Positions 13,939 to 31,721 of a stretch of 32,087 nt of DNA are shown here, piece by piece. Below the pieces are notes generated by a model. The model ran no database searches and was not told the DNA's origin. It saw only the letters and a program-made list of their open reading frames with translations. Source of the stretch: Nitrospirota bacterium (GTDB lineage: Bacteria > Nitrospirota > Nitrospiria > Nitrospirales > Nitrospiraceae). Position numbers and translations under genes: made by a program. Every line of letters starts with the position of its first letter. Position 1 is the stretch's first letter. The stretch covers positions 1 through 32,087 of the forward strand of contig JACZQN010000014.1 of assembly GCA_022545705.1 (NCBI GenBank). Reading direction: 5' to 3'.

Positions 13939-13967
13939 TTGACGGCGCAGGGTGGCTCCGTTAGTAT
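13939..13967 (+). promoter_or_regulatory. candidate promoter starting the mutL transcription unit
   Basis: TTGACG at 13939-13944 and TAGTAT at 13962-13967 are 17 bases apart, directly after the lipA stop. A TATACT at 13965-13970 overlaps the second. The position implies that the next gene starts at the ATG at 14000 rather than at the GTG at 13952 that lies inside this promoter. Confidence 0.45.
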
Positions 13968-13999
13968 ACTGGCACGAGCAGTCCCGCCCGATCTTTCAC

Positions 14000-14353
14000 A
14001 TGCCGTTTTCCAAGCGCTTCCAAACCCTTAAACATGCCCTCTCGCTCGCCTTTGCTGTGGAGACAGCTCGCGATCCACTCACGGTCGAGGATGTCGCTCT
14101 GCTCGATAAGGTGGCGCGCGTCGTGGTGGCCAGAGGGATGGCCAGCCCGGCTATGCTGTTTTTGGAGTCTGCAGCCCCGATGAATTTCCTCGGAAGCCAG
14201 GCGTTGCACTTTCTGACGCCCATCCTGAACCTTGCTTGCGAGACCCGAGAGATCGAGCAGGTCGCCCATCTCCTTGAACGGCGTGACGCCATTCCCAGAC
14301 TGATTGCTCTCATCGAGGCCAAGTGCTCTGCGGGAGGGGCTTCTCCTCGATGA
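14000..14353 (+). CDS. conserved-looking hypothetical protein coupled to mutL
   Basis: The 117-residue product is mostly helical. A central segment, about residues 43-63, contains ARGMASPAMLFLES followed by NFLGSQALHFL. I think this pattern recurs in small uncharacterised proteins of several bacterial phyla, but I know no named family. There is no signal peptide, and the helices are amphipathic rather than clear transmembrane segments. The ATG at 14000 is preferred because a promoter candidate covers the alternative GTG at 13952. Its stop overlaps the mutL start by an ATGA, so the two are very likely made together and may interact. Confidence 0.7.
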   Translation: MPFSKRFQTLKHALSLAFAVETARDPLTVEDVALLDKVARVVVARGMASPAMLFLESAAPMNFLGSQALHFLTPILNLACETREIEQVAHLLERRDAIPRLIALIEAKCSAGGASPR

Positions 14354-16194
14354 AGGCCTCCTCCTCGGAGCTTGACCAGCCGGTCGCCACCCATCCCCTC
14401 TCTGTTATCATTGCGACGGATTGCGGAAGCACAACCACGAAGGCCATCCTTATTGAAAAAAAAGGAGAGGTGTATCGGCAAACCTTCCGGGGCGAGGCCC
14501 CCACAACCGTGGAGGCTCCGTTTGAAGATGTCACGCGAGGAGTCCTCAACGCGATCGCGGAAGTGGAGGAACTGTCCGGGCGTAAAATCTTGGACGGTGA
14601 ACGCATCATCACACCGAATCAGGAACAGGCAGGCAACCCAAATGTTGGAGTGGACCTTTACATTTCGACCAGTAGCGCGGGCGGCGGCCTGCAGATGATG
14701 GTCGCCGGCGCGGTCCAGAGCATGACTGGCGAGAGTGCCCAGCGGTGCGCGCTGGGAGCAGGGGCGATCGTCATGGACGTGCTGGCGTCCAATGACGGCC
14801 GACTCCCGCACGAGAAGATTGAGCGGATCCGCTCGCTTCGACCCGATATGATCCTGTTGTCGGGTGGTACAGATGGAGGCACCGTCAGTCACGTGATGGA
14901 GATGGCGGAGTATATTGCAGCGGCGGAACCGCGTCCCCGTCTCGGCATGAGCTATTCCCTTCCGCTGATCTATGCCGGTAACAAAAACGCCCGTGAACTA
15001 GTTCAGGAGATTCTGGGTAAAAAAACCTCTCTGGTCATCACCGAGAATATCCGTCCAATGCTGGAGCGTGAGAACTTAGGGCCGGCCCGTGACAAGATCC
15101 ACGACCTCTTCCTGGAGCATGTCATGGCGCAAGCCCCCGGTTACAAAAAGCTCATCGCCTGGACGGGCGCCCCCATCATGCCGACTCCGGCGGCTGTCGG
15201 GCTCATCATGGAGACCCTGGCCAGGCGGGAGCACTTGAACCTGCTCGGGGTGGACATCGGCGGCGCGACCACGGACGTGTTTTCAGTGTTCCGGAACGTG
15301 TTCAACCGGACAGTGAGCGCGAACTTAGGGATGTCCTACAGTATTTCGAATGTGCTCGCGGAGGCCGGGCTGCCCAACATCATGCGCTGGGTCCCGTGTA
15401 CGATTGAAGAGCAAACCCTGCGCAATCGGATCAAGAATAAAATGATACGACCCACGACGATTCCACAGACACTCGATGAACTCCAAATTGAGCAGGCCAT
15501 CGCTCGTGAGGCCTTACGGCTCGCACTGGCGCATCACAAATCGCTGGCTACAGGCCTCAAAGGCGTGCAACAAGAGCGCACGATCTCTGACGCTTTCGAG
15601 CAGCGAGCCTCTGGCGCGACCCTCATTGACATGTTGAGCCTGGACTTGATCGTCGGAAGCGGGGGGATCCTGTCGCACGCCCCCAGGCGGATCCAGGCGA
15701 TGCTCATGATGGTTGACGCGTATGAGCCACTGGGATTCACCCTGCTCTCCGTGGACAGCATCTTTATGATGCCGCACCTGGGTGTGCTGTCCACTGTGAA
15801 TGAGCAGGCAGCGACTGACGTGTTTGTACGGGACTGCCTGGTCTATCTGGGCACGTGCGTCGCTCCAATCGGACAAGGCAAGGAGGGCGAACGATGCACA
15901 GACTACACGATGACGTTTGGGAATGACCGCAAGTCGGAACGCGGGACACTGGCCTTCGGGGAATTGAAATTACTCTCCCTGGGGCCCGACGAACGTGCGC
16001 AGGTGACTCTTCAACCCGCCAAACATGTGGATGCTGGGGAAGGACGGGGAAAGTCGGTCACCCGAGAGGTTCGCGGCGGCGTCGTGGGCCTGTTGTTGGA
16101 TGGCCGAGGCCGGCCCCTTCAGCTGCCGACCGATACGCCTACCCGGCTGGCTGCCCTGGACCGTTGGTATCGAGCGGTCAACCTATACCCGTGA
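14350..16194 (+). CDS. MutL/GlmL family ASKHA ATPase
   Basis: The 614-residue product belongs to the glutamate mutase MutL (GlmL) family. It is an actin/hsp70-type ATPase with phosphate-1 motif TDCGSTTTK at residues 23-31 and phosphate-2 motif VDIGGATTD at 301-309. In Clostridium the gene sits between the two subunits of the B12-dependent glutamate mutase and is thought to reactivate it. Here neither mutase subunit (a GlmS cobalamin domain or GlmE) is present, so the target may be different. The ATG at 14350 overlaps the preceding stop and has GGGAGGGG at 14332-14339. The glycine-rich loop GLVGSGGILSHAPRR-like segment near residue 436 is typical of the family. Function here is unknown. Confidence 0.88.
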   Translation: MKASSSELDQPVATHPLSVIIATDCGSTTTKAILIEKKGEVYRQTFRGEAPTTVEAPFEDVTRGVLNAIAEVEELSGRKILDGERIITPNQEQAGNPNVGVDLYISTSSAGGGLQMMVAGAVQSMTGESAQRCALGAGAIVMDVLASNDGRLPHEKIERIRSLRPDMILLSGGTDGGTVSHVMEMAEYIAAAEPRPRLGMSYSLPLIYAGNKNARELVQEILGKKTSLVITENIRPMLERENLGPARDKIHDLFLEHVMAQAPGYKKLIAWTGAPIMPTPAAVGLIMETLARREHLNLLGVDIGGATTDVFSVFRNVFNRTVSANLGMSYSISNVLAEAGLPNIMRWVPCTIEEQTLRNRIKNKMIRPTTIPQTLDELQIEQAIAREALRLALAHHKSLATGLKGVQQERTISDAFEQRASGATLIDMLSLDLIVGSGGILSHAPRRIQAMLMMVDAYEPLGFTLLSVDSIFMMPHLGVLSTVNEQAATDVFVRDCLVYLGTCVAPIGQGKEGERCTDYTMTFGNDRKSERGTLAFGELKLLSLGPDERAQVTLQPAKHVDAGEGRGKSVTREVRGGVVGLLLDGRGRPLQLPTDTPTRLAALDRWYRAVNLYP

Positions 16195-16469: not shown

Positions 16470-17609
16470 ATGGGACATGCGTATACACCTGGCTTGATGG
16501 TGACCGAGCGGACGGTCGTGCGAAGACGCCGACTGCTCCCTATCCCCGGTACGGTGACGGTCCAAGCCGGCAGCCAGGTGACCGCGGAAACAGTCGTCGC
16601 GAAGACAGATTTGCCAGGGAATGTTCAGGCGATCAACCTGGCGAATGTTTTGGGGATACTTCCGGACGAGATCCGTGACTATCTACTCGTAAAGGAGGGT
16701 GAAGCTGTCAAGAAAGGCGGCGTGATCGCTGAAAACAAGCCATTCATTAAGTGGTTGAAAACGGAGGTGCGTTCACCAATTCAGGGAACACTCGAATTGG
16801 TCTCTACCGTGACTGGGCAAGTGATGCTTCGAGAACCACCGCGGTTACTGCAACTGCTCGCGTACATCGATGGGACTGTGGTTGAGGTCCAGCCCCAACA
16901 TGGCGTGACGGTCGAGACTCCCTGCAGTTTGATACAAGGCATCTTCGGGGTGGGGGGAGAAACCTCGGGCGAGGTCGTCATGGGGGTGAAGTCACCGGAT
17001 GATACGCTGACGCCGTCTCAGTTGTCGCCTGCGATGAAGGGCAAGGTCGTCGTCGGGGGCGCCTTCCTCACAGCCGAAACGATGACCCGAGCCCGCGAGA
17101 TAGGGGTCGCAGGGTTGGTCGTGGGCGGCATCGATGACAAAGACCTGCGTGCCTTACTCGGTTATGATTTGGGTGTCGCGATTACCGGAACTGAGCGAGT
17201 TGGATTTACGCTGGTGCTGACAGAAGGGTTCGGCAGGATCCCGATGGCAGGCAAGACCTTCACGCTTCTCTCCCGGCGTGCAGGTCAGAAGGCATCGCTC
17301 TCTGGCGCGACACAAATCCGTGCCGGAGTCATCCGCCCCGAATTGATCATTCCGACATCAGATGACAGCGCAGCCATCGCGACTCCTAGGGGGTCGGGGG
17401 TCTCCGAGGAACGGACCGGGCTCATGATCGGAGATGAAGTCCGCGTCATTCGTGATCCGCTGTTCGGCCGGATCGGTCAGGTTGTCGCCCTTCCATCCGA
17501 CTTGAGCCGCGTTGGGACGGAGAGTCTTGTCCGAGTCCTGGAGGTAGAATTCCCCGATAAGACTCGGGCGGTGATCCCCCGGGCAAACGTGGAGATTATT
17601 GAAGGATGA
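16470..17609 (+). CDS. uncharacterised protein with sandwich-barrel and KOW-like domains
   Basis: The 379-residue product has no signal peptide or membrane helix. Residues 25-170 contain repeated GTV..QAG..V and PIQGTLE.V patterns like the sandwich-barrel hybrid motifs of biotinyl/lipoyl domains, RnfC and RNA polymerase. They lack the acceptor lysine motif. Residues about 175-290 form an alpha/beta segment with GVAGLVVGGIDD. The C-terminal 60 residues start with GDEVRVIRDPLFGRIGQV, a KOW-like beta barrel as in NusG or ribosomal protein L24. It opens a row of membrane genes, its stop overlapping the next ATG (ATGA). I infer a cytoplasmic subunit of that membrane assembly. The ribosome site is weak, and an ATG at 16497 is possible. 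Confidence 0.75.
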   Translation: MGHAYTPGLMVTERTVVRRRRLLPIPGTVTVQAGSQVTAETVVAKTDLPGNVQAINLANVLGILPDEIRDYLLVKEGEAVKKGGVIAENKPFIKWLKTEVRSPIQGTLELVSTVTGQVMLREPPRLLQLLAYIDGTVVEVQPQHGVTVETPCSLIQGIFGVGGETSGEVVMGVKSPDDTLTPSQLSPAMKGKVVVGGAFLTAETMTRAREIGVAGLVVGGIDDKDLRALLGYDLGVAITGTERVGFTLVLTEGFGRIPMAGKTFTLLSRRAGQKASLSGATQIRAGVIRPELIIPTSDDSAAIATPRGSGVSEERTGLMIGDEVRVIRDPLFGRIGQVVALPSDLSRVGTESLVRVLEVEFPDKTRAVIPRANVEIIEG

Positions 17610-18892
17610 CCGCGGTTATTCCCGGCAGAACGCTGAGTGGCGTGTGTCTGCCATGGGTCATGCTGTTGCTGTGGTCCCTCCCCCTCTCAGCGCAGGCACA
17701 GGACTTGTTGCCTGCCCCTGAGCAGGTTCAGGTCTTCGACACCCCCAACGATGCCGGGCAAAGCCTCACGCTGCTTTGGGCTGACTCCCTGCGAGATGGG
17801 CCTGGGGTGCGCTATCAAATTCTGATCGCTCCGGTGGCTGATGCACGGGCGACTGCTCCGGCAGTGGACCCAGCCGCCATGGAAATAGTGGCCGAAATTC
17901 CGTCTGATTCTCACTATGTCCGTGATCGCTCTTGGCCCTGGTGGACGCACCCGGCTCCCCCCGCGTTTCACCGGTACGTGATCAATTCGCGGAGTGGCCT
18001 CGAACTGATGAATGATACCCCCTATGTTGTAACCGTGGCTGCGGTCACAGGTGAGATCCGTACTTTTGGGCCAGCCATCCAGGCCGTCCCTGAGCCGAAC
18101 TGGGTGAACTGGAACCAGATGAACAACCTGCTGCTTTTGCTCGCATTTGGAGCCGGAGTGTTCGGCTCAATCCGAACAGCCAAGCGTCGTGAGATCTTTC
18201 TCCGTCGAATCCCGGGTCTTGACGCGGTGGATGAGGCCATCGGGCGGGCTACGGAGTTAGGCAAGCCGATCCTCTATTTAACTGGTGCGGGAGATATGGG
18301 CGAGCCATCGACAATTGCGGCCGCGGTCATTCTCGGTCGCGTGAGCAAGCGCGTCGCCATGTATGAGACCGAACTCATAGTCCCACACCGTGACCCCATT
18401 GTCATGGTCGTCTGTCAGGAGATCACAAAACAGTCGTACTTAGAAGCCGGCAAGGCTGACATCTTCAAGGAAGACTCGAACTTTTTTATCACGACCGATC
18501 AGTTCAGCTACACCGCCGCGGTGGACGGAATTATGCTGCGTCGAAAACCAGCGGCCAACTTTTTCATGGGATCCTACTTTGCCGAGTCACTCCTCTTGAC
18601 TGAAACCGGAGCCAGCACCGGGGCAATCCAGATCGCCGGGACCGACTCCGACCACCAGCTACCCTTTTTCGTGACCACGTGCGATTACACACTGATCGGC
18701 GAAGAGCTCTATGCTGCGAGCGCCTACCTGTCGCGAGAGCCGGTCCAGGTCGGCACCTTGCGCGGCCAGGACCTTGGCAAGGCAGTCATCCTTGGCGTGT
18801 TGGCCTTGGGGACAGGCCTGGCAACGATCGGCCTGATACTCGACGCCCAATGGCCGGCCTTGCTGCTAGACCTCTTTCGAGACTACAAATGA
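17606..18892 (+). CDS. DUF6754-like membrane-anchored protein
   Basis: The 428-residue product starts with a signal peptide (hydrophobic to about residue 27, cleavage near AQA). A fibronectin-III-like exported domain follows (about 35-160), then a membrane helix near 173-190 (NNLLLLLAFGAGVFGSI). Next comes a basic stretch and an alpha/beta domain (about 195-400) with LYLTGAGDMGEPSTIAA, and a last helix near 393-418. This matches my memory of DUF6754 proteins, but no search was possible. With this topology the alpha/beta domain lies in the cytoplasm. The start overlaps the previous stop and the stop overlaps the next start, both ATGA, so three proteins are made in coupled fashion. No enzyme motif is sure; the Gly-rich LTGAGDMG could be a ligand loop. 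Confidence 0.75.
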   Translation: MTAVIPGRTLSGVCLPWVMLLLWSLPLSAQAQDLLPAPEQVQVFDTPNDAGQSLTLLWADSLRDGPGVRYQILIAPVADARATAPAVDPAAMEIVAEIPSDSHYVRDRSWPWWTHPAPPAFHRYVINSRSGLELMNDTPYVVTVAAVTGEIRTFGPAIQAVPEPNWVNWNQMNNLLLLLAFGAGVFGSIRTAKRREIFLRRIPGLDAVDEAIGRATELGKPILYLTGAGDMGEPSTIAAAVILGRVSKRVAMYETELIVPHRDPIVMVVCQEITKQSYLEAGKADIFKEDSNFFITTDQFSYTAAVDGIMLRRKPAANFFMGSYFAESLLLTETGASTGAIQIAGTDSDHQLPFFVTTCDYTLIGEELYAASAYLSREPVQVGTLRGQDLGKAVILGVLALGTGLATIGLILDAQWPALLLDLFRDYK

Positions 18893-19563
18893 CGTTCCTC
18901 CGCAGGCAGCTTCCCTTGGTCATCACGTTCGTAGCGGGTGTCATATTTACGCTCCAATACTATGTGCCCCATCCCAAATCCGAGATACTCCTCACCGAGG
19001 GCTCCCTGTGGATTCAGATCATCGGGTTGTTTGCGCTGGTTTTGGGCGTGACCAGCCTGTTTCACATTCACGCGGTCAAGATCAAGCGTCAGGAACCAGG
19101 ATGGGGATACAGCTTGATCCTTTATTTTGGGATCGTCGTGACCTTAGCCGTGGGCCTGTTCGTGCAGTGGGTTGGGGGTCAGCACCCCGGGGGGAAGGAA
19201 ACGATCGACGGCGCCATGACTGCTTTCGGGTGGATTTATACCTACACAATGGTTCCCCTCCAGGGAACGATGTTCGCCATTCTGGCCTTCTTCATCGCCT
19301 CCGCGGCGTATCGTTCTTTCCGGGCACGCAGCAAGGAAGCCGCCTTGCTCCTAACCGCGGCCGTCATCGTCATGATGGGGAGGGTGCCTCTTGGCGAGTA
19401 TCTGCTGCCCGTTACCGGTGATATCACGCTGTGGATTTTGAACGTACTGAACGCCTCGGTCCGACGCGCCATCCTGATCGGCATCAGCCTGGGCGCGGTG
19501 GCTCTTTCCATCAAGATCATTTTTGGCCTGGAGCGAGCGTATCTCGGGGGAGGCAAAGAATAA
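18889..19563 (+). CDS. uncharacterised six-helix membrane protein
   Basis: The 224-residue product (ATG at 18889, overlapping the previous stop) is almost wholly hydrophobic. I count about six membrane helices, near residues 8-27, 38-60, 74-95, 110-140, 146-165 and 187-210. Short charged loops lie between them, including KIKRQEPG and FRARSKE. A longer frame could begin at 18679 but would run inside the preceding gene, so the overlap start is preferred. I recognise no family. It is the third gene of the coupled set and probably forms part of the same membrane complex. Confidence 0.75.
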   Translation: MTFLRRQLPLVITFVAGVIFTLQYYVPHPKSEILLTEGSLWIQIIGLFALVLGVTSLFHIHAVKIKRQEPGWGYSLILYFGIVVTLAVGLFVQWVGGQHPGGKETIDGAMTAFGWIYTYTMVPLQGTMFAILAFFIASAAYRSFRARSKEAALLLTAAVIVMMGRVPLGEYLLPVTGDITLWILNVLNASVRRAILIGISLGAVALSIKIIFGLERAYLGGGKE

Positions 19564-19644
19564 GGTCAAAGGTAAAAGGTAAAAGGGCAAAAGTTAAATA
19601 TGACGACTTCCACACTTCTTCCTTTTTACGTTTTCCTTTTTACT
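19563..19644. repeat. purine/pyrimidine low-complexity inverted repeat
   Basis: The left arm (19563-19598) repeats aaaggtaaaagg-type units. The right arm (19617-19644) repeats the complementary ctttttacgttttcc type. The arms can pair imperfectly around a loop of about 18 bases. It fills the gap between two membrane genes, in the style of the heptamer array upstream of 16470 but of a different sequence. Confidence 0.75.
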
Positions 19645-19658
19645 TGGGAGCGAACACG

Positions 19659-20492
19659 GTGAGCTTTCCAGAGAAGATGTTGCGAATTGACCGCCGGATC
19701 ATCTTTTTCGTGATCGGCCTGTGCACGCTGTTGCCCCTTTTGTACCCCGTGGACCTTCCTATTATCGTAACACCGGAAGTCCGCATGGTGTACGATTACA
19801 TCGAATCCTTACCCGATGGGTCGGTATTTCTTCTGTCCATGGATTTCGACCCGGCCTCCAAACCCGAACTTGAACCCCAGGCTATCGCCTTACTGCGCCA
19901 CGCGTTCAGCAGAAATCTCAGAGTCATCGCGATGACGTTGTGGCTCCCTGGCACTGGCTTGGCCGAACAGACTGTCAACAGGGTCGCTCAGGAATTAGGC
20001 AAGGTCAACGGAGAGGATTACGTGTTTCTGGGTTATAGCCCCGGGGTCGGCGCGCTGATCATAGGGATGGGCCAAGATCTCTACAAGGCGTTTCCGAGCG
20101 ATTATTACGGCAATCCAACGAAAACGCTGGCGGTTCTGAAAGACGTGCCGAACCTTCGGCACGTGGACTATGTGGTAAGTCTGGCGGCAGGAACTCCAGG
20201 GGTCGAAACGTGGTACTTGTTCGGAAAGGACAAATACCAATTTGAGCTCGGGGGAGGATGCACCGGAGTGATCGCTCCGGGACTCTACCCCCTGCTGCGG
20301 AGCGGCCAGATCAACGGGCTTATCGGCGGAATGCGTGGGGCAGCCGAATACGAGTTACTCATCGACCAGAGTGGCTCTGCAGTTGCGGGAATGGATGCTC
20401 AGTCAGCGACGCACTTTGCGATCATCGTTCTGGTCATCTTGTGTAACACCTTTTATTTTATGACGCGGCGCGCCGCTGCGCGAGGTGGGTGA
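19659..20492 (+). CDS. uncharacterised protein with membrane anchors at both ends
   Basis: From the GTG at 19659 (GGGAG at 19646-19650) the product has 277 residues; an ATG at 19677 is an alternative. It has a membrane helix at about residues 14-32 and another at about 252-270. Between them is a soluble alpha/beta domain of some 215 residues. Helix position rules suggest the domain faces outward, but this is not sure. Motif-like stretches are LLSMDFDPASKPE, YSPGVGALIIGMG and GGMRGAAEYELL. The C-terminal sequence GMDAQ followed by a helix recalls GQDLG plus helix at the end of the 17606 protein, so the two may be distant relatives. Function is unknown. Confidence 0.75.
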   Translation: MSFPEKMLRIDRRIIFFVIGLCTLLPLLYPVDLPIIVTPEVRMVYDYIESLPDGSVFLLSMDFDPASKPELEPQAIALLRHAFSRNLRVIAMTLWLPGTGLAEQTVNRVAQELGKVNGEDYVFLGYSPGVGALIIGMGQDLYKAFPSDYYGNPTKTLAVLKDVPNLRHVDYVVSLAAGTPGVETWYLFGKDKYQFELGGGCTGVIAPGLYPLLRSGQINGLIGGMRGAAEYELLIDQSGSAVAGMDAQSATHFAIIVLVILCNTFYFMTRRAAARGG

Positions 20493-20496
20493 AGTG

Positions 20497-20612
20497 GAAG
20501 CGTATGGTCGCTTTGGTCTGTTGCGTCCATTCGCTTCGTCTCTCAACAAACCGGACTCAACAGAAGTAACGGACCACACAGACAACACTGACCTCACTGA
20601 CGAAACGACAAC
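20497..20612. repeat. inverted repeat plus low-complexity acactgacc tract
   Basis: GAAGCGTATGG at 20497-20507 pairs with CCATTCGCTTC at 20527-20537 with one mismatch. It is followed by a tract at about 20567-20605 of short repeated units of the type cacacagacaacactgacctcactgac. The tract has almost no coding potential and lies between two membrane genes. It is a third sequence type of the same intergenic style found at 16213, 19563 and 28656. Confidence 0.6.
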
Positions 20613-20626
20613 TCGCGAGCACCTCG

Positions 20627-21376
20627 ATGCCTTTTGACGTAGTCCTCGGTGCATGGGTTGCCGTAGGGCTGACCCTCTTCATCTTCACCTTCCTCTACGA
20701 GGATAACCCCCTCTTCAAGTTGGCGGAGCACCTCTATGTCGGCATCTCGGTCGGATACACGATCGTCAAAGGGTATGAGCTGGTCTTTCGCCTCATTTAT
20801 GATCCGATCGTAGACGAAGGGGAATGGTCACGGCTGATTCCGGTGGGCATCGGTATCTTAATGCTGACTCGGTATGTTCCCAAGATTGCCTGGCTTTCGC
20901 GCATTGCTTTTGCGTTCGTTGTCGGAGTCGGCTCCGGGCTGGCCATTCCTCGGCTGATCTCGTCCTATATCCTCAAGCAGGTCGAGGATACGGTGCGTCC
21001 CTTGGTCTCCGTCCTGGAGGGAGGCCTCATTAGGCCGACCTTCGACATCCTGAATCCGGAGAGCAGTCTCAACTCTTTGGTGATCCTGATCGGGGTCATG
21101 TCGGTGCTCTTCTATTTTTTCTTTTCGATCGAGCATCGCGGCCCCGTCAAAGTCGCTGCACGGACCGGCATCTTCTTTCTTATGCTGTCCTTCGGCGCTG
21201 CCTTCGGATACACGGTGATGGCCCGCATGTCCCTGCTGATCGGCCGCTTCAGGGATCTCATTGAATTCGCTCGGCCGGAGTACGGCCGCGCCACGTTGTG
21301 GCTCCTCGCCGTGACCATTGTGATCTTGGTCACTGCCGCATTCCGCAGACCCAGCGCACCTCCCGAGCAAGAGTAA
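20627..21376 (+). CDS. uncharacterised polytopic membrane protein
   Basis: The 249-residue product has about six or seven membrane helices, near residues 3-22, 33-55, 66-80, 84-107, 147-166, 176-196 and 213-238. It starts MPFDVVLGAWVAVGLTLF, then FLYEDNPLFKLAEHL with conserved-looking charges in the first loop. I recognise no family. Spacing of 134 bases from the preceding gene is larger than elsewhere in the row, but the direction and type of product suggest it completes the same module. The ribosome site is weak. A 44-residue reading frame and a Memo-family gene follow. Confidence 0.75.
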   Translation: MPFDVVLGAWVAVGLTLFIFTFLYEDNPLFKLAEHLYVGISVGYTIVKGYELVFRLIYDPIVDEGEWSRLIPVGIGILMLTRYVPKIAWLSRIAFAFVVGVGSGLAIPRLISSYILKQVEDTVRPLVSVLEGGLIRPTFDILNPESSLNSLVILIGVMSVLFYFFFSIEHRGPVKVAARTGIFFLMLSFGAAFGYTVMARMSLLIGRFRDLIEFARPEYGRATLWLLAVTIVILVTAAFRRPSAPPEQE

Positions 21377-21490: not shown

Positions 21491-21625
21491 ATGTCGAGGC
21501 CCGTCGACGGGGCTCAGGGCTGCCTGGATAAGCACCATATGATGGCGGAGCTACGACATGGTTCGATCAAAGAGGGTCTTACCTATCATGTGCTCGGAGT
21601 CATCACTACAGCCGGAATGACATGA
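21491..21625 (+). CDS. possible 44-residue small protein or leader
   Basis: An ATG at 21491 follows GAGG (21480-21483) by seven bases and opens a frame of 44 codons. Its stop overlaps the ATG of the Memo-family gene (ATGA). The gene arrangement repeats the coupling seen elsewhere in the window and would explain why the downstream gene lacks its own good ribosome site. The peptide ends in GVITTAGMT and shows no signal or motif. It could be a regulatory leader, a small protein or chance. The remainder of 21377-21490 shows nothing else. Confidence 0.35.
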   Translation: MSRPVDGAQGCLDKHHMMAELRHGSIKEGLTYHVLGVITTAGMT

Positions 21626-22872
21626 CCGAAAGAGCCAAAGATCCCAACCAGTACCCTCTGCTGCGGAATCTTCAGTTCTCTCCCCTTAGGCAGCAGGATG
21701 AGCAGTACATCATGCTATGGGATGCATCCGGAATTTCGGCCGACAAGTTGATCATTCCATTAAGCTACTTCTTCATCATCCAGCATTTCGATGGGGAACA
21801 TTCGCTAGAACAGGTCGCCACGCTGTATCTGAAAAGGTTCGGTGAGTTCCTGAGTCCAGACCGTCTCTCGAAGCTGGTGGCCGATCTCAACGAGAAGCTC
21901 TTTCTGGAAGGAGAGCGCTTTGCAGCCGCCAAGGCCGCCGCGAGAGCGGCGTACCGAGACGCCCCCGTCCGTAAGGCCGCCTATGCCGGGAAAAGTTACC
22001 CTGACGACTCAACCCAACTGTTGGCGCAACTTGAGTCGTTTTACAGCTCCAAAGAGGGCCCGGAGATCAGGCCATCAGCCAATCGTGGAAAGCGGATGCG
22101 AGGCCTCGTGGCCCCGCACTATGAAATGCGGGATGCCGGTCCCCTGTATGCCTGGGCGTACAAGGAGCTGAAGGAAGCCGTTGCACCGAACCTGGTTGTC
22201 GTGCTCGGAACCTGTCATGCTGGACTGGAAAACCTCTACGCGCTCACCGATAAAGATTTTGAGACACCCCTCGGGCTTGTACGGGTGGACCGGGACATCT
22301 TGGATTGGTTCAGGAAGCACGGCTCTAGCACCTACTTCGACGAGGAACTGAGCCATCAAAACGAGCACACGATCGAGTTTCAGCTTCCGTTCCTCCAACA
22401 CACGCTGGGACCGGACACCCCCTTTACGATTGTGCCCATCTTGTGCGCGTTTCCCCCTGCCTACGTGGCAGACCCCGCATCCCAGCCCGTGAAGGACAAG
22501 ATCGAGACTTTCATCCAGACCATGAAAGAGGGGATTGCAGCATCCGGCAAAGAGCCCTGCATCGTGGCGAGCGCCGAGCTGGCTCACATTGGCATGCGTT
22601 ATGGCGACTCCAACCCGCCCAGCGACTTTACTTTCCATCGGTGTATGCAGGCAGACCTGGCCATGCTCAAGCATGTGGAGGAGCTGGATCCCGAGGCCTT
22701 TGCACGGTTCATCCTCAAGGAAAACGATGAGCGAAGAATTTTCGGGTTCGCCCCGATCTATACCATGTTGCGGCTGATTCAGGCTGCCAAGGGAGAGGTT
22801 CTACGGTATGACCGAGCGATCACGGACCAGTTCAATTCGACCGTGACCTACGCAAGCATGGCCTTCTTCTAG
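21622..22872 (+). CDS. Memo-family (AmmeMemoRadiSam system protein B) with N-terminal PqqD-like domain
   Basis: Residues about 120-416 form a Memo-like domain related to extradiol dioxygenases: YAGKSYP, APHYEMRD, GTCHAGL, SHQNEHTIEFQLPFLQ and SAELAHIGMRYGD are all present, including metal-binding histidine candidates. Residues about 40-105 form an extra domain with FDGEHSLEQVATLY and a following helical repeat ending LFLEG. It resembles PqqD or related winged-helix domains that bind leader peptides. Bacterial Memo proteins often co-occur with AMMECR1 and a radical SAM protein, but neither is in this window. The overall role of the family is not established. The ribosome site is weak and the start overlaps a short upstream frame. 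Confidence 0.82.
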   Translation: MTERAKDPNQYPLLRNLQFSPLRQQDEQYIMLWDASGISADKLIIPLSYFFIIQHFDGEHSLEQVATLYLKRFGEFLSPDRLSKLVADLNEKLFLEGERFAAAKAAARAAYRDAPVRKAAYAGKSYPDDSTQLLAQLESFYSSKEGPEIRPSANRGKRMRGLVAPHYEMRDAGPLYAWAYKELKEAVAPNLVVVLGTCHAGLENLYALTDKDFETPLGLVRVDRDILDWFRKHGSSTYFDEELSHQNEHTIEFQLPFLQHTLGPDTPFTIVPILCAFPPAYVADPASQPVKDKIETFIQTMKEGIAASGKEPCIVASAELAHIGMRYGDSNPPSDFTFHRCMQADLAMLKHVEELDPEAFARFILKENDERRIFGFAPIYTMLRLIQAAKGEVLRYDRAITDQFNSTVTYASMAFF

Positions 22873-28767: not shown

Positions 28768-29739
28768 ATGCGGCTCACCTTTACCATCCAACGCTATAAT
28801 CCCGAAACGGACGCCCACCAGCATGAAGAGCAGTTTCGTCTCGACGTCGGCCGCGGCATGACCGTCCTCGAGAGCTTGATCCGGATCAAGAACGAGCAGG
28901 ACGGGACGCTCTCGTTACGGTACTCTTGTCGCTCGGCAATCTGCGGGTCCTGCGCAATGGAGATCAACGGGGCGGAAAAGTTGGCCTGCCGGACGACCGT
29001 TCGGAGGGAATTGGAACGCCATGGCCAGATCGCGGTGGCTCCCCTCAAGAACCTGCCCGTGATCAAGGACCTGGTTGTGGACATGTCTTCGTTCTGGGGT
29101 AAAGTCCTCGACGTGACCCCATGGCTATCGTCCACGTCACCAGCTAGCGCCGCGCATCCAGGCGACCCAATGAGGCTCCTGCCGGGTAGCTACCAATTTC
29201 ACAACGTGGACGCTTGTATCATGTGCGGGGCGTGTGTGGCTGCCTGTACGTCGCATGAGGTGTCCAAAGGGTTTCTGGGCCCGGCTGCGCTCGCGAAGGC
29301 GGAGCGATTCATGGCAGATCCGCGAGAGCCGGAGACGGCCAAGCGGCGACGGCTGGTTGAGCTGGATCAGGAAAACGGGATCTGGGACTGCGTCCGCTGT
29401 AATTTCTGTGTCCAAGTGTGCCCGAAGGACGTGAAGCCGATGGAGGCGATCATTCGTCTGCGCCGGCGAGCCATCGAGTCAGGGCTGGTTTCCAGCGGGG
29501 GTGCCCGCCATATCACCGGCTTCTCCGAAATTGTCCAGCAGGAAGGACGCCTCAATGAAGCCCGCATGCCCCTCAAGATCGTTGGGTTCAGCCTGAAGCG
29601 CCTCCTTCGTCTGCTTCCGCTAGGGCTCAAAATGCTGTTGAAGGGGAAAGTTCCGAACCCGCTGGCTCCACCCATTCCAGGCATTGCACAAGTCCGATCC
29701 ATTTTTGGAGTGGCTCGACGGCGAGCCGCAGGATCGTGA
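28768..29739 (+). CDS. succinate dehydrogenase / fumarate reductase iron-sulfur subunit
   Basis: The 323-residue product has a plant-type [2Fe-2S] domain with Cys54, Cys59, Cys62 and Cys74, followed by two bacterial ferredoxin motifs. The first is Cys150, Cys153, Cys156 and Cys160. The second is Cys208, Cys211, Cys214 and Cys218, in CVRCNFCVQVCP. In E. coli-type SdhB the second motif has an aliphatic residue in place of the second cysteine and binds a [3Fe-4S] cluster; here the extra cysteine predicts [4Fe-4S]. The protein would pass electrons between a flavoprotein and the quinone site, in either TCA direction. The flavin and membrane subunits are not in the window. It overlaps archease by GTGA. 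The ribosome site is weak. Confidence 0.9.
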   Translation: MRLTFTIQRYNPETDAHQHEEQFRLDVGRGMTVLESLIRIKNEQDGTLSLRYSCRSAICGSCAMEINGAEKLACRTTVRRELERHGQIAVAPLKNLPVIKDLVVDMSSFWGKVLDVTPWLSSTSPASAAHPGDPMRLLPGSYQFHNVDACIMCGACVAACTSHEVSKGFLGPAALAKAERFMADPREPETAKRRRLVELDQENGIWDCVRCNFCVQVCPKDVKPMEAIIRLRRRAIESGLVSSGGARHITGFSEIVQQEGRLNEARMPLKIVGFSLKRLLRLLPLGLKMLLKGKVPNPLAPPIPGIAQVRSIFGVARRRAAGS

Positions 29740-30176
29740 CCTTCACGTTCAGGTTCCTCGAAGAGGTGGCCTTAGCCGATTTGGCCTTTGAGGCGTGTGG
29801 GGATTCGCCCTCAGAATTGTTCCAAGCCGCGGCCCAGGCCGTGATCGAAACGATAGTCAATCCGATGACAGTCCAGCCATGCCGCGAGAAATCGATCGAG
29901 CGTCGAGCCCCGACCATCGCCGATCTCCTGTTTGACTGGCTCTCTGACATTGTGTACCTCAAGGATGCGGAAAGCATCGTGTTTCGCGAGGCGACCGCCG
30001 TTGTGACCCAAGACCAGAATCAGGGCGAATGGCAGCTCCATGGCACGCTGACCGGCGCGCCGATTGATCCCAACAGCCAAGAACTCCACGCTGATGTCAA
30101 AGCGGTGACCAAGCATCTCTATGAAGTGAGACAGGAAGGGCCACGATGGGTCGCACGGGTCGTTCTTGATATTTGA
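29736..30176 (+). CDS. archease, RtcB-activating protein
   Basis: The 146-residue product has the archease pattern: an ADLAFEA region near the start, the SELFQAAAQAV helix, LLFDWLSDIVYL, then VKAVTKH and the C-terminal VVLDI. Archease helps the RNA ligase RtcB load GMP and turn over. The GTG start at 29736 overlaps the stop of the preceding gene by four bases. rtcB follows after 90 bases, as is common for the family. The first metal-binding position usually seen as HTAD reads ALAD here, keeping the aspartate. Confidence 0.9.
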   Translation: MTFTFRFLEEVALADLAFEACGDSPSELFQAAAQAVIETIVNPMTVQPCREKSIERRAPTIADLLFDWLSDIVYLKDAESIVFREATAVVTQDQNQGEWQLHGTLTGAPIDPNSQELHADVKAVTKHLYEVRQEGPRWVARVVLDI

Positions 30177-30266
30177 AATGAAACCAGGCCAGGGGCCTTT
30201 CCCTGTTGCCTCCGGTTAGTCCCCCTTGCCTCTCGCCCCACGCCTCCAGCCCGCGAAGGTGAAAGT

Positions 30267-31721
30267 ATGACCAAGGTGAACACAGGCATGGCTGTAAACC
30301 GGATTACCAATGAGGTGTGGGAAATTCCGGTGACCGAGAAGTCCGGGATGCTGGTGCCGGCCAGAATCTACGCCACTGAGTCCGTCCTGAGCAGCATGGA
30401 CGGCGGTGTCTTTGAGCAGGTGACGAACGTGGCATGCCTCCCTGGCATTCAACGCTATGCGCTGTGCATGCCGGACGGGCACTGGGGATACGGGTTTCCG
30501 ATCGGTGGGGTAGCTGCCTTTGATCCCAGCCACGGAGTCATCTCACCTGGTGGAATCGGATTTGACATCAACTGCGGGATGCGGTTGATCCGTACAGACT
30601 TGACGCTGAGTGATGTCCAACCGCGGCTCGAGCAACTGATGACCGAACTATTCCGCAAGGTTCCAGCCGGTGTGGGCTCCAAGGGATTCGTGCGGCTGAA
30701 TCGCCAGGACTTCCAGAACGTCATGCGAAAGGGTGTGCGCTGGTGCGTGGAAAACGGCCACGGGTGGAATGAAGATCTTGCGCGCATCGAGGAGCATGGA
30801 TGCATTCCCGGAGCCGACCCATCGAAGGTAAGCGACCATGCCATCGAACGTGGCATCCATCAACTCGGCACCCTTGGATCGGGGAATCACTATCTCGAAG
30901 TGCAAGTTGCTTCCGATGATCGCATTTTCGATCGCGAGACGGCAGCGGCGCTTGGAATTACTGGACACGATCAGATCGTCGTCATGGTCCACTGCGGATC
31001 CCGCGGGTTCGGCCACCAGGTGGCGAGCGACTACTTGAGGGTCTTCGAGAAAGCCATGCGGCGCTATGGCATCTCGGTCAAGGATCAGCAGCTGGCCTGC
31101 GCACCGTTCCGTTCTCCAGAGGGCCAGGACTACTTTGCCGCCATGAATTGTGCCGCCAACAGCGCGTTTGCCAACCGCCAGGTGATTACCCATCAAATCC
31201 GTAAGGCGTTCGAATCCGTGTTTGGGCGCTCCGCTGAGGAACTTGGGATGGAGATCGTCTACGATGTTGCCCACAACATCGCCAAGGTGGAGCGGTATGC
31301 GGAAGGTGAGTTGGTGGTGCACCGAAAGGGCTCTACCAGGGCATTTGGGCCGGGAAGTCAGGAGTTGCCGGAACTCTATCGAGCGACTGGCCAACCGGTG
31401 ATCTGCGGCGGATCGATGGAAACAGGTTCGTATTTGCTGGTCGGGACGGACCAGGCGATGCGCGACACGTTTGGGTCTACGATGCACGGGTCCGGGCGGA
31501 CGATGTCGCGCGCGCAGGCAAAACGATCGGTCCGGGGAGATAAGCTTCAACGGGACATGGCCCAGCGGGGAATCATCGTGAAGGCGGTGTCGATGTCCGG
31601 GCTCGCGGAGGAGGCGGGGTTCGCGTACAAGAACATCTCGGAGGTCGTGGAGACGGTGGAGAGGGCGGGGATCACCAAAAAAGTAGCGGAGCTGCGACCG
31701 ATCGGAAGTATCAAGGGATGA
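30267..31721 (+). CDS. rtcB: RNA ligase RtcB
   Basis: RtcB joins RNA 2',3'-cyclic phosphate or 3'-phosphate ends to 5'-OH ends using GTP and Mn2+. The 484-residue length matches the archaeal/bacterial long form. Metal- and substrate-site motifs are present: PDGHWGYGFPIGG, FDINCG with Cys103, GTLGSGNHYLEV, VMVHCGSRGFGHQV and VYDVAHNIAK. The guanylylated histidine is His407 in STMHGSGR. The ATG at 30267 has AAGGTGAA upstream. Its function in this host, tRNA or mRNA repair or ribosome repair, cannot be told. The pair with archease is a well-known functional partnership. Confidence 0.95.
   Translation: MTKVNTGMAVNRITNEVWEIPVTEKSGMLVPARIYATESVLSSMDGGVFEQVTNVACLPGIQRYALCMPDGHWGYGFPIGGVAAFDPSHGVISPGGIGFDINCGMRLIRTDLTLSDVQPRLEQLMTELFRKVPAGVGSKGFVRLNRQDFQNVMRKGVRWCVENGHGWNEDLARIEEHGCIPGADPSKVSDHAIERGIHQLGTLGSGNHYLEVQVASDDRIFDRETAAALGITGHDQIVVMVHCGSRGFGHQVASDYLRVFEKAMRRYGISVKDQQLACAPFRSPEGQDYFAAMNCAANSAFANRQVITHQIRKAFESVFGRSAEELGMEIVYDVAHNIAKVERYAEGELVVHRKGSTRAFGPGSQELPELYRATGQPVICGGSMETGSYLLVGTDQAMRDTFGSTMHGSGRTMSRAQAKRSVRGDKLQRDMAQRGIIVKAVSMSGLAEEAGFAYKNISEVVETVERAGITKKVAELRPIGSIKG

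Follow-up and report, generated by a model that had tools for sequence, protein, structure and literature searches.

The window analyzed here, a stretch of 32,087 nucleotides from a member of the Nitrospirota, carries five consecutive genes, P1 to P5, which the sequence-only reading had singled out as an uncharacterized envelope module with no recognizable enzyme. We confirmed the five open reading frames as real genes on the plus strand, and since each protein aligns along most of its length with relatives in other phyla (roughly 37-80% identity across phyla), P1 to P5 are not chance open reading frames. The five-gene boundary proved too narrow, as two genes located upstream, S0 and a MutL-type ATPase (PF13941), recur across phyla; the description of a group with no recognizable enzyme, made for the five genes, misses this adjoining ATPase. 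The features of the locus, all on the plus strand, are the following:

13952 to 14353, plus strand: S0, a soluble protein of 133 amino acids, upstream partner gene, with no Pfam family.
14350 to 16194, plus strand: MutL-type actin-fold ATPase (PF13941), starting with the ATG at 14350.
16470 to 17609, plus strand: P1, candidate cytoplasmic adaptor with a barrel-sandwich hybrid, a central swivel-like domain and a C-terminal KOW/SH3-like domain, as read from Pfam matches of its relatives.
17606 to 18892, plus strand: P2, with a signal peptide, a putatively external FN3-like domain, a helix, the DUF6754 alpha/beta domain (PF20539) and a further helix.
18889 to 19563, plus strand: P3, a six-helix integral membrane protein by hydropathy, with no Pfam family.
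19659 to 20492, plus strand: P4, with an N-terminal helix, a Rossmann-like alpha/beta domain and a C-terminal helix in the predicted structure, and no Pfam family.
20627 to 21376, plus strand: P5, a polytopic membrane protein by hydropathy, with no Pfam family.
21622 to 22872, plus strand: Memo-like protein (PF01875, by Pfam), adjoining P5 in Nitrospirales loci only.

A check of the sequence verified the ATGA overlaps between P1 and P2 (17606-17609) and between P2 and P3 (18889-18892), and revealed a third one between S0 and the MutL-type gene (14350-14353), missed previously. Because P2 and P3 share the ATGA overlap, the start of P3 is the ATG at 18889, while alignment with relatives makes the GTG at 19659 the most likely start of P4, rather than that of the longer open reading frame from 19431. 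In the window, P3 and P4 are separated by 95 bp and P4 and P5 by 134 bp, with no overlap; scans for sigma-70 promoters and terminators gave results near chance level. The Memo-like gene is probably a lineage-specific neighbor outside the module core. Its product presents about 118 extra N-terminal residues with no Pfam match, resembling by eye a PqqD/RRE-type peptide-binding domain. By eye, an AMMECR1-like gene is found near the module in one Armatimonadota locus (L165, 10647-11204). Further downstream in the window (28768-31721), a succinate dehydrogenase subunit-like Fe-S protein, an archease and an RtcB RNA ligase are encoded together; archease and RtcB form a known pair.

The MutL-type protein is a member of PF13941, with 428.4 bits against a Pfam gathering cut-off of 27. 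In 28 relatives, the motifs by which actin-fold ATPases bind phosphate and adenosine are retained, and the protein is therefore predicted to be probably active as an ATPase. The actin fold and the conserved nucleotide motifs are shared with the MutL/GlmL family, accessory to glutamate mutase and ornithine degradation, and membership in PF13941 could suggest that this protein serves a B12-dependent enzyme, as in the glutamate mutase system, and lies beside membrane genes by chance. However, it scores 226 bits against the NCBIfam GlmL equivalog (cut-off of 475) and 165 bits against TIGR01319 (cut-off of 204), also remaining under the cut-off of the Or-4 equivalog, and the E subunit of methylaspartate (glutamate) mutase was found in none of the 21 Nitrospirota genomes examined. 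Moreover, different from MutL/GlmL, the gene stands in an operon with membrane genes, and it adjoins P1 in several phyla, which makes an accessory role for a B12 enzyme extremely improbable. Among the loci with enough upstream sequence, the MutL-type gene lies upstream of P2 in 53 of 88 and S0 in 67 of 88. The ATPase is found in 18 of 20 genomes carrying the module and was not detected in the remaining 2, both draft assemblies, so that it may not be obligatory. As for S0, no Pfam match was obtained in 16 relatives, save one weak hit; in the Armatimonadota, where the MutL-type gene and P1 sit elsewhere, S0 directly adjoins P2.

P1 had been read as a soluble protein with sandwich-barrel and KOW-like domains, and models of this kind do match its relatives (RnfC_N in 16 of 27, Biotin_lipoyl in 12, KOW in 6 and NqrA_N in 6), the best RnfC_N E value being 1.6e-6, even though the P1 of the window itself stays under the Pfam cut-offs. 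A PA swivel domain matches the central part of one relative. Hydropathy detects no hydrophobic segment in P1, a soluble protein with no export signal, and a role as HlyD/RND periplasmic adaptor is disfavored by this lack and by an RND_mfp score of 14.4 bits against the NCBIfam cut-off of 94.9. A search of PDB sequences with P1, P2, P4 and the MutL-type protein returned only KOW, FN3 or chance matches.

The candidate barrel-sandwich hybrid in a soluble subunit, together with a multisubunit membrane core, recalls Rnf and Na+-NQR, and the sequence-only reading had considered a redox function among others. A redox or ion-pumping complex, with P1 in the place of RnfC or NqrA, would account for the RnfC_N/NqrA_N-type domain of P1 and could make use of the few conserved His and acidic residues of the P3-P5 core. 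On the other hand, different from Rnf and Na+-NQR, the module has no Fe-S, FMN-binding or Complex1_51K domain in any subunit according to the Pfam scans, and no conserved Cys cluster; a single invariant Cys occurs among P2 relatives and none among those of P1. Flavinylation at an SGAT-like stretch of P1 was rejected, as the Ser is replaced by Asn in some relatives, no FMN_bind domain is present and the protein has no export signal. The redox idea is thus weakened, and we regard it as very unlikely.

The resemblance of P2 to DUF6754 was borne out by a PF20539 score of 371.8 bits (cut-off of 27, E=1.9e-111), which makes it a full member of a family without a described function. Also the proposed signal peptide and anchor found correspondence in a signal-peptide-like start and in two helices flanking the DUF6754 domain, the first of which is below the hydropathy threshold, though present in the predicted structure (mean pLDDT of 73). 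PDB matches cover the FN3-like part only, which is absent from most Armatimonadota copies. Positive charges after the first helix suggest that the DUF6754 domain would be cytoplasmic. In one genome (G004), the P2 frame (L018:8626-10911, 761 aa) changes near its end and spans the place of P3, which may be a sequencing error.

The architectures previously assigned to the other membrane subunits agree with hydropathy, which detects six hydrophobic segments in P3, one at each end of P4 and five in P5; none of the three matches a Pfam family. The predicted structure of P4 is confident (pLDDT of 92.1 and pTM of 0.86), and its charged ends point to a location of the alpha/beta domain outside the cytoplasm. 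A fold search of this structure found no PDB match to the whole fold, only glycosyltransferase-like and universal-stress-like Rossmann matches with TM-scores of <0.4 by query length, and neither P4 nor P2 gave a catalytic or ligand-site match in the structure search. In the predicted structures, P2 and P4 are alike in presenting a helix, an alpha/beta domain and a helix with similar order of elements, and by eye they have in common a LIGxxxxAAxYL-like stretch. Their relation as paralogs was not accepted, as profile comparison was not significant (E values of 0.095 and 0.034); likewise, kinship between P3 and P5 was not accepted on a single pair with an E value of 0.0054 over 53 residues and a probability of about 7%.

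In the PilM-PilN-PilO system, an actin-fold cytoplasmic protein is combined with membrane-anchored alpha/beta partners. By the same logic, the module could be a static or signaling scaffold, in which the actin-fold protein docks on membrane-anchored alpha/beta proteins so as to signal or hold a state of the outside, without transport: the MutL-type protein, the soluble adaptor and the bitopic alpha/beta subunits would fit such an arrangement, and a P4 domain outside the cytoplasm, together with the optional FN3, would suit ligand sensing. The likeness, drawn from the general description of that system, is one of logic only, since Pfam scans gave no PilM, PilN or PilO family match, and the module has in addition P3 and P5, conserved polytopic subunits which a scaffold would not need, and the barrel-sandwich/KOW adaptor. 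We consider a scaffold doubtful.

The sequence-only reading had suggested a survey of gene neighborhoods across phyla, on the argument that genes scattered in other genomes, or belonging each to an unrelated characterized family, would speak against a complex. We did not meet with that outcome: the order P2-P3-P4-P5 holds in 91 of the 95 loci with enough sequence, with P1 co-retained. The four exceptions are L064, where P5 lies further downstream; L095, with no P4 match; L162, which has P2-P3 only and a second copy elsewhere in the genome; and L160, where P2 has no other module gene adjoining. P2 relatives were identified by a contig scan in Elusimicrobiota, Latescibacterota, Poribacteria, Methylomirabilota, Armatimonadota, Gemmatimonadota, WOR-3/Stahlbacteria, Coatesbacteria, anammox Planctomycetota and others, named as in the record titles. 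The Nitrospirales keep the order S0-MutL-P1-P2-P3-P4-P5-Memo in nearly every locus, and the usual order in Armatimonadota is X-S0-P2-P3-P4-P5, with a short P2 and an extra small gene, X, which also occurs in Latescibacterota. Variants include a tandem arrangement of P2-P3-P4-P5 with two complete sets and at least one more P2 (L102:2891-10774), a doubled P4 (L088) and a fusion of P3 and P4 in a single reading frame of 459 aa (L062:2872-6989). In the Nitrospirales subgroup of L062, a Tll0287-like secreted protein is encoded twice between P1 and P2, and single copies occur in L025, L027 and L028.

P1 lies upstream of P2 in 56 of the 88 loci with enough upstream sequence, and its retention extends beyond this linkage. 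Of 148 Nitrospirota genomes, 42 carry both P1 and P2 and the other 106 carry neither, one of the latter belonging to the window's own family. Among 81 Armatimonadota genomes, 72 carry P1 and P2, 3 carry P1 alone, none carries P2 alone and 6 lack both (Fisher 2.6e-7, a statistic that ignores kinship), and P1 is often distant from P2, as on one contig of G219, where the two are located at 555 kb and 1399 kb. Furthermore, P1 was found in 20 of 20 further module genomes, in many of them unlinked to P2, while a search of 14 well-known control genomes detected the module in none. Such co-retention of unlinked genes is a stronger sign of joint function than an operon alone, and we hold with high confidence that the module is one functional unit. 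The order of P2 to P5 and the co-retention of P1 also favor the proposal, made at the outset, of an envelope complex whose adaptor is a soluble barrel-sandwich protein.

Outside the Nitrospirota, the commonest neighbors are genes of Opp-type peptide ABC transporters: in an unbiased survey, 126 same-strand neighbors of these loci, related loci included, comprise 11 ABC_tran, 11 oligo_HPY, 7 SBP_bac_5 and 4 BPD_transp_1 domains. A full Opp set is inserted between P1 and P2 in two Elusimicrobiota loci (L070 and L089), OppD/OppF genes follow P5 in L074, L076, L079 and L088, and binding proteins adjoin the module in L082, L084, L087, L155, L158 and L161 and lie near P1 in L138. SBP_bac_5 genes fall within 5 kb of or inside the module in 9 of 79 loci, related ones included, whereas the 37 such genes of 20 genomes would give an expectation of 0.31; counted as four phyla, this proximity has a chance of about 3e-4. 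However, no SBP_bac_5 protein was found in 13 Nitrospiraceae genomes, that of the window included, nor in several other module genomes. Since the Nitrospiraceae carry the module without SBP_bac_5, association with the peptide importer is optional, and the importer does not belong to the machine; the module itself, different from Opp/Dpp-type transporters, has no ABC ATPase, BPD permease or SBP_bac_5 domain in P1 to P5 in the Pfam scans.

Other neighbors could indicate that the module works with glycosyltransferases to assemble a lipid- or polyprenyl-linked compound of the envelope. Several Elusimicrobiota (L071, L080, L083, L085, L089, L094 and L107) encode, between P1 and P2, a polytopic glycosyltransferase of PMT_2 type with a length of about 720 aa, and a YhdP/AsmA-like gene is found near the module in Nitrospirales; yet the PMT_2 insertion was seen in a single phylum and YhdP occurs only in Nitrospirales, outside the operon. 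We judge an assembly role quite unlikely.

From gene order, co-retention, domain content and neighbor statistics, it is possible to hypothesize how the products would be assembled, oriented and coupled, and which ligand they may handle. All the genes would contribute to one inner-membrane complex with a core of P3 and P5, in which P2 and P4 would each be anchored by two helices; the alpha/beta domain would face the cytoplasm in P2, whose optional FN3 would be outside, and the outside in P4. P1 would be the cytoplasmic adaptor linking the core to the MutL-type ATPase with the help of S0. Binding and hydrolysis of ATP by the latter would most likely change the state of P1 and P2 and so drive or gate the core. 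Since the genes most often added are those of Opp-type importers, the ligand outside would probably resemble a peptide or be released along with peptides. As a whole, an inner-membrane complex energized or gated through P1 by a MutL-type ATPase, with an envelope ligand possibly peptide-like, is put forward tentatively as the favored reading. The bolder proposal of an undescribed machine, in which an actin-fold ATPase, neither ABC nor P-type, would power P3 and P5 via the adaptor and thereby move or display envelope ligands of a peptide-like nature, appears unlikely at present.

Among open-licence PMC papers, our search retrieved no paper naming DUF6754, nothing relevant to the gene cluster and no description of the partners P1, P3, P4, P5 and S0, in line with the earlier statement that no experimental role is known. 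P2 and the MutL-type protein belong to named families, but the set as a whole falls under no named family or system, and the tests made here did not match it to any known type of system; any newness concerns the system, not an activity.

The module, retained as a set by Nitrospira-type nitrifiers, anammox bacteria, Armatimonadota (72 of 81 genomes) and several candidate phyla, is probably important to these lineages. Together with the partner P1, the ATPase and the optional link to peptide transporters, the gene set turns nameless families into one testable complex, and if the proposed machine were true, an actin-fold ATPase system of this kind would span about ten bacterial phyla.
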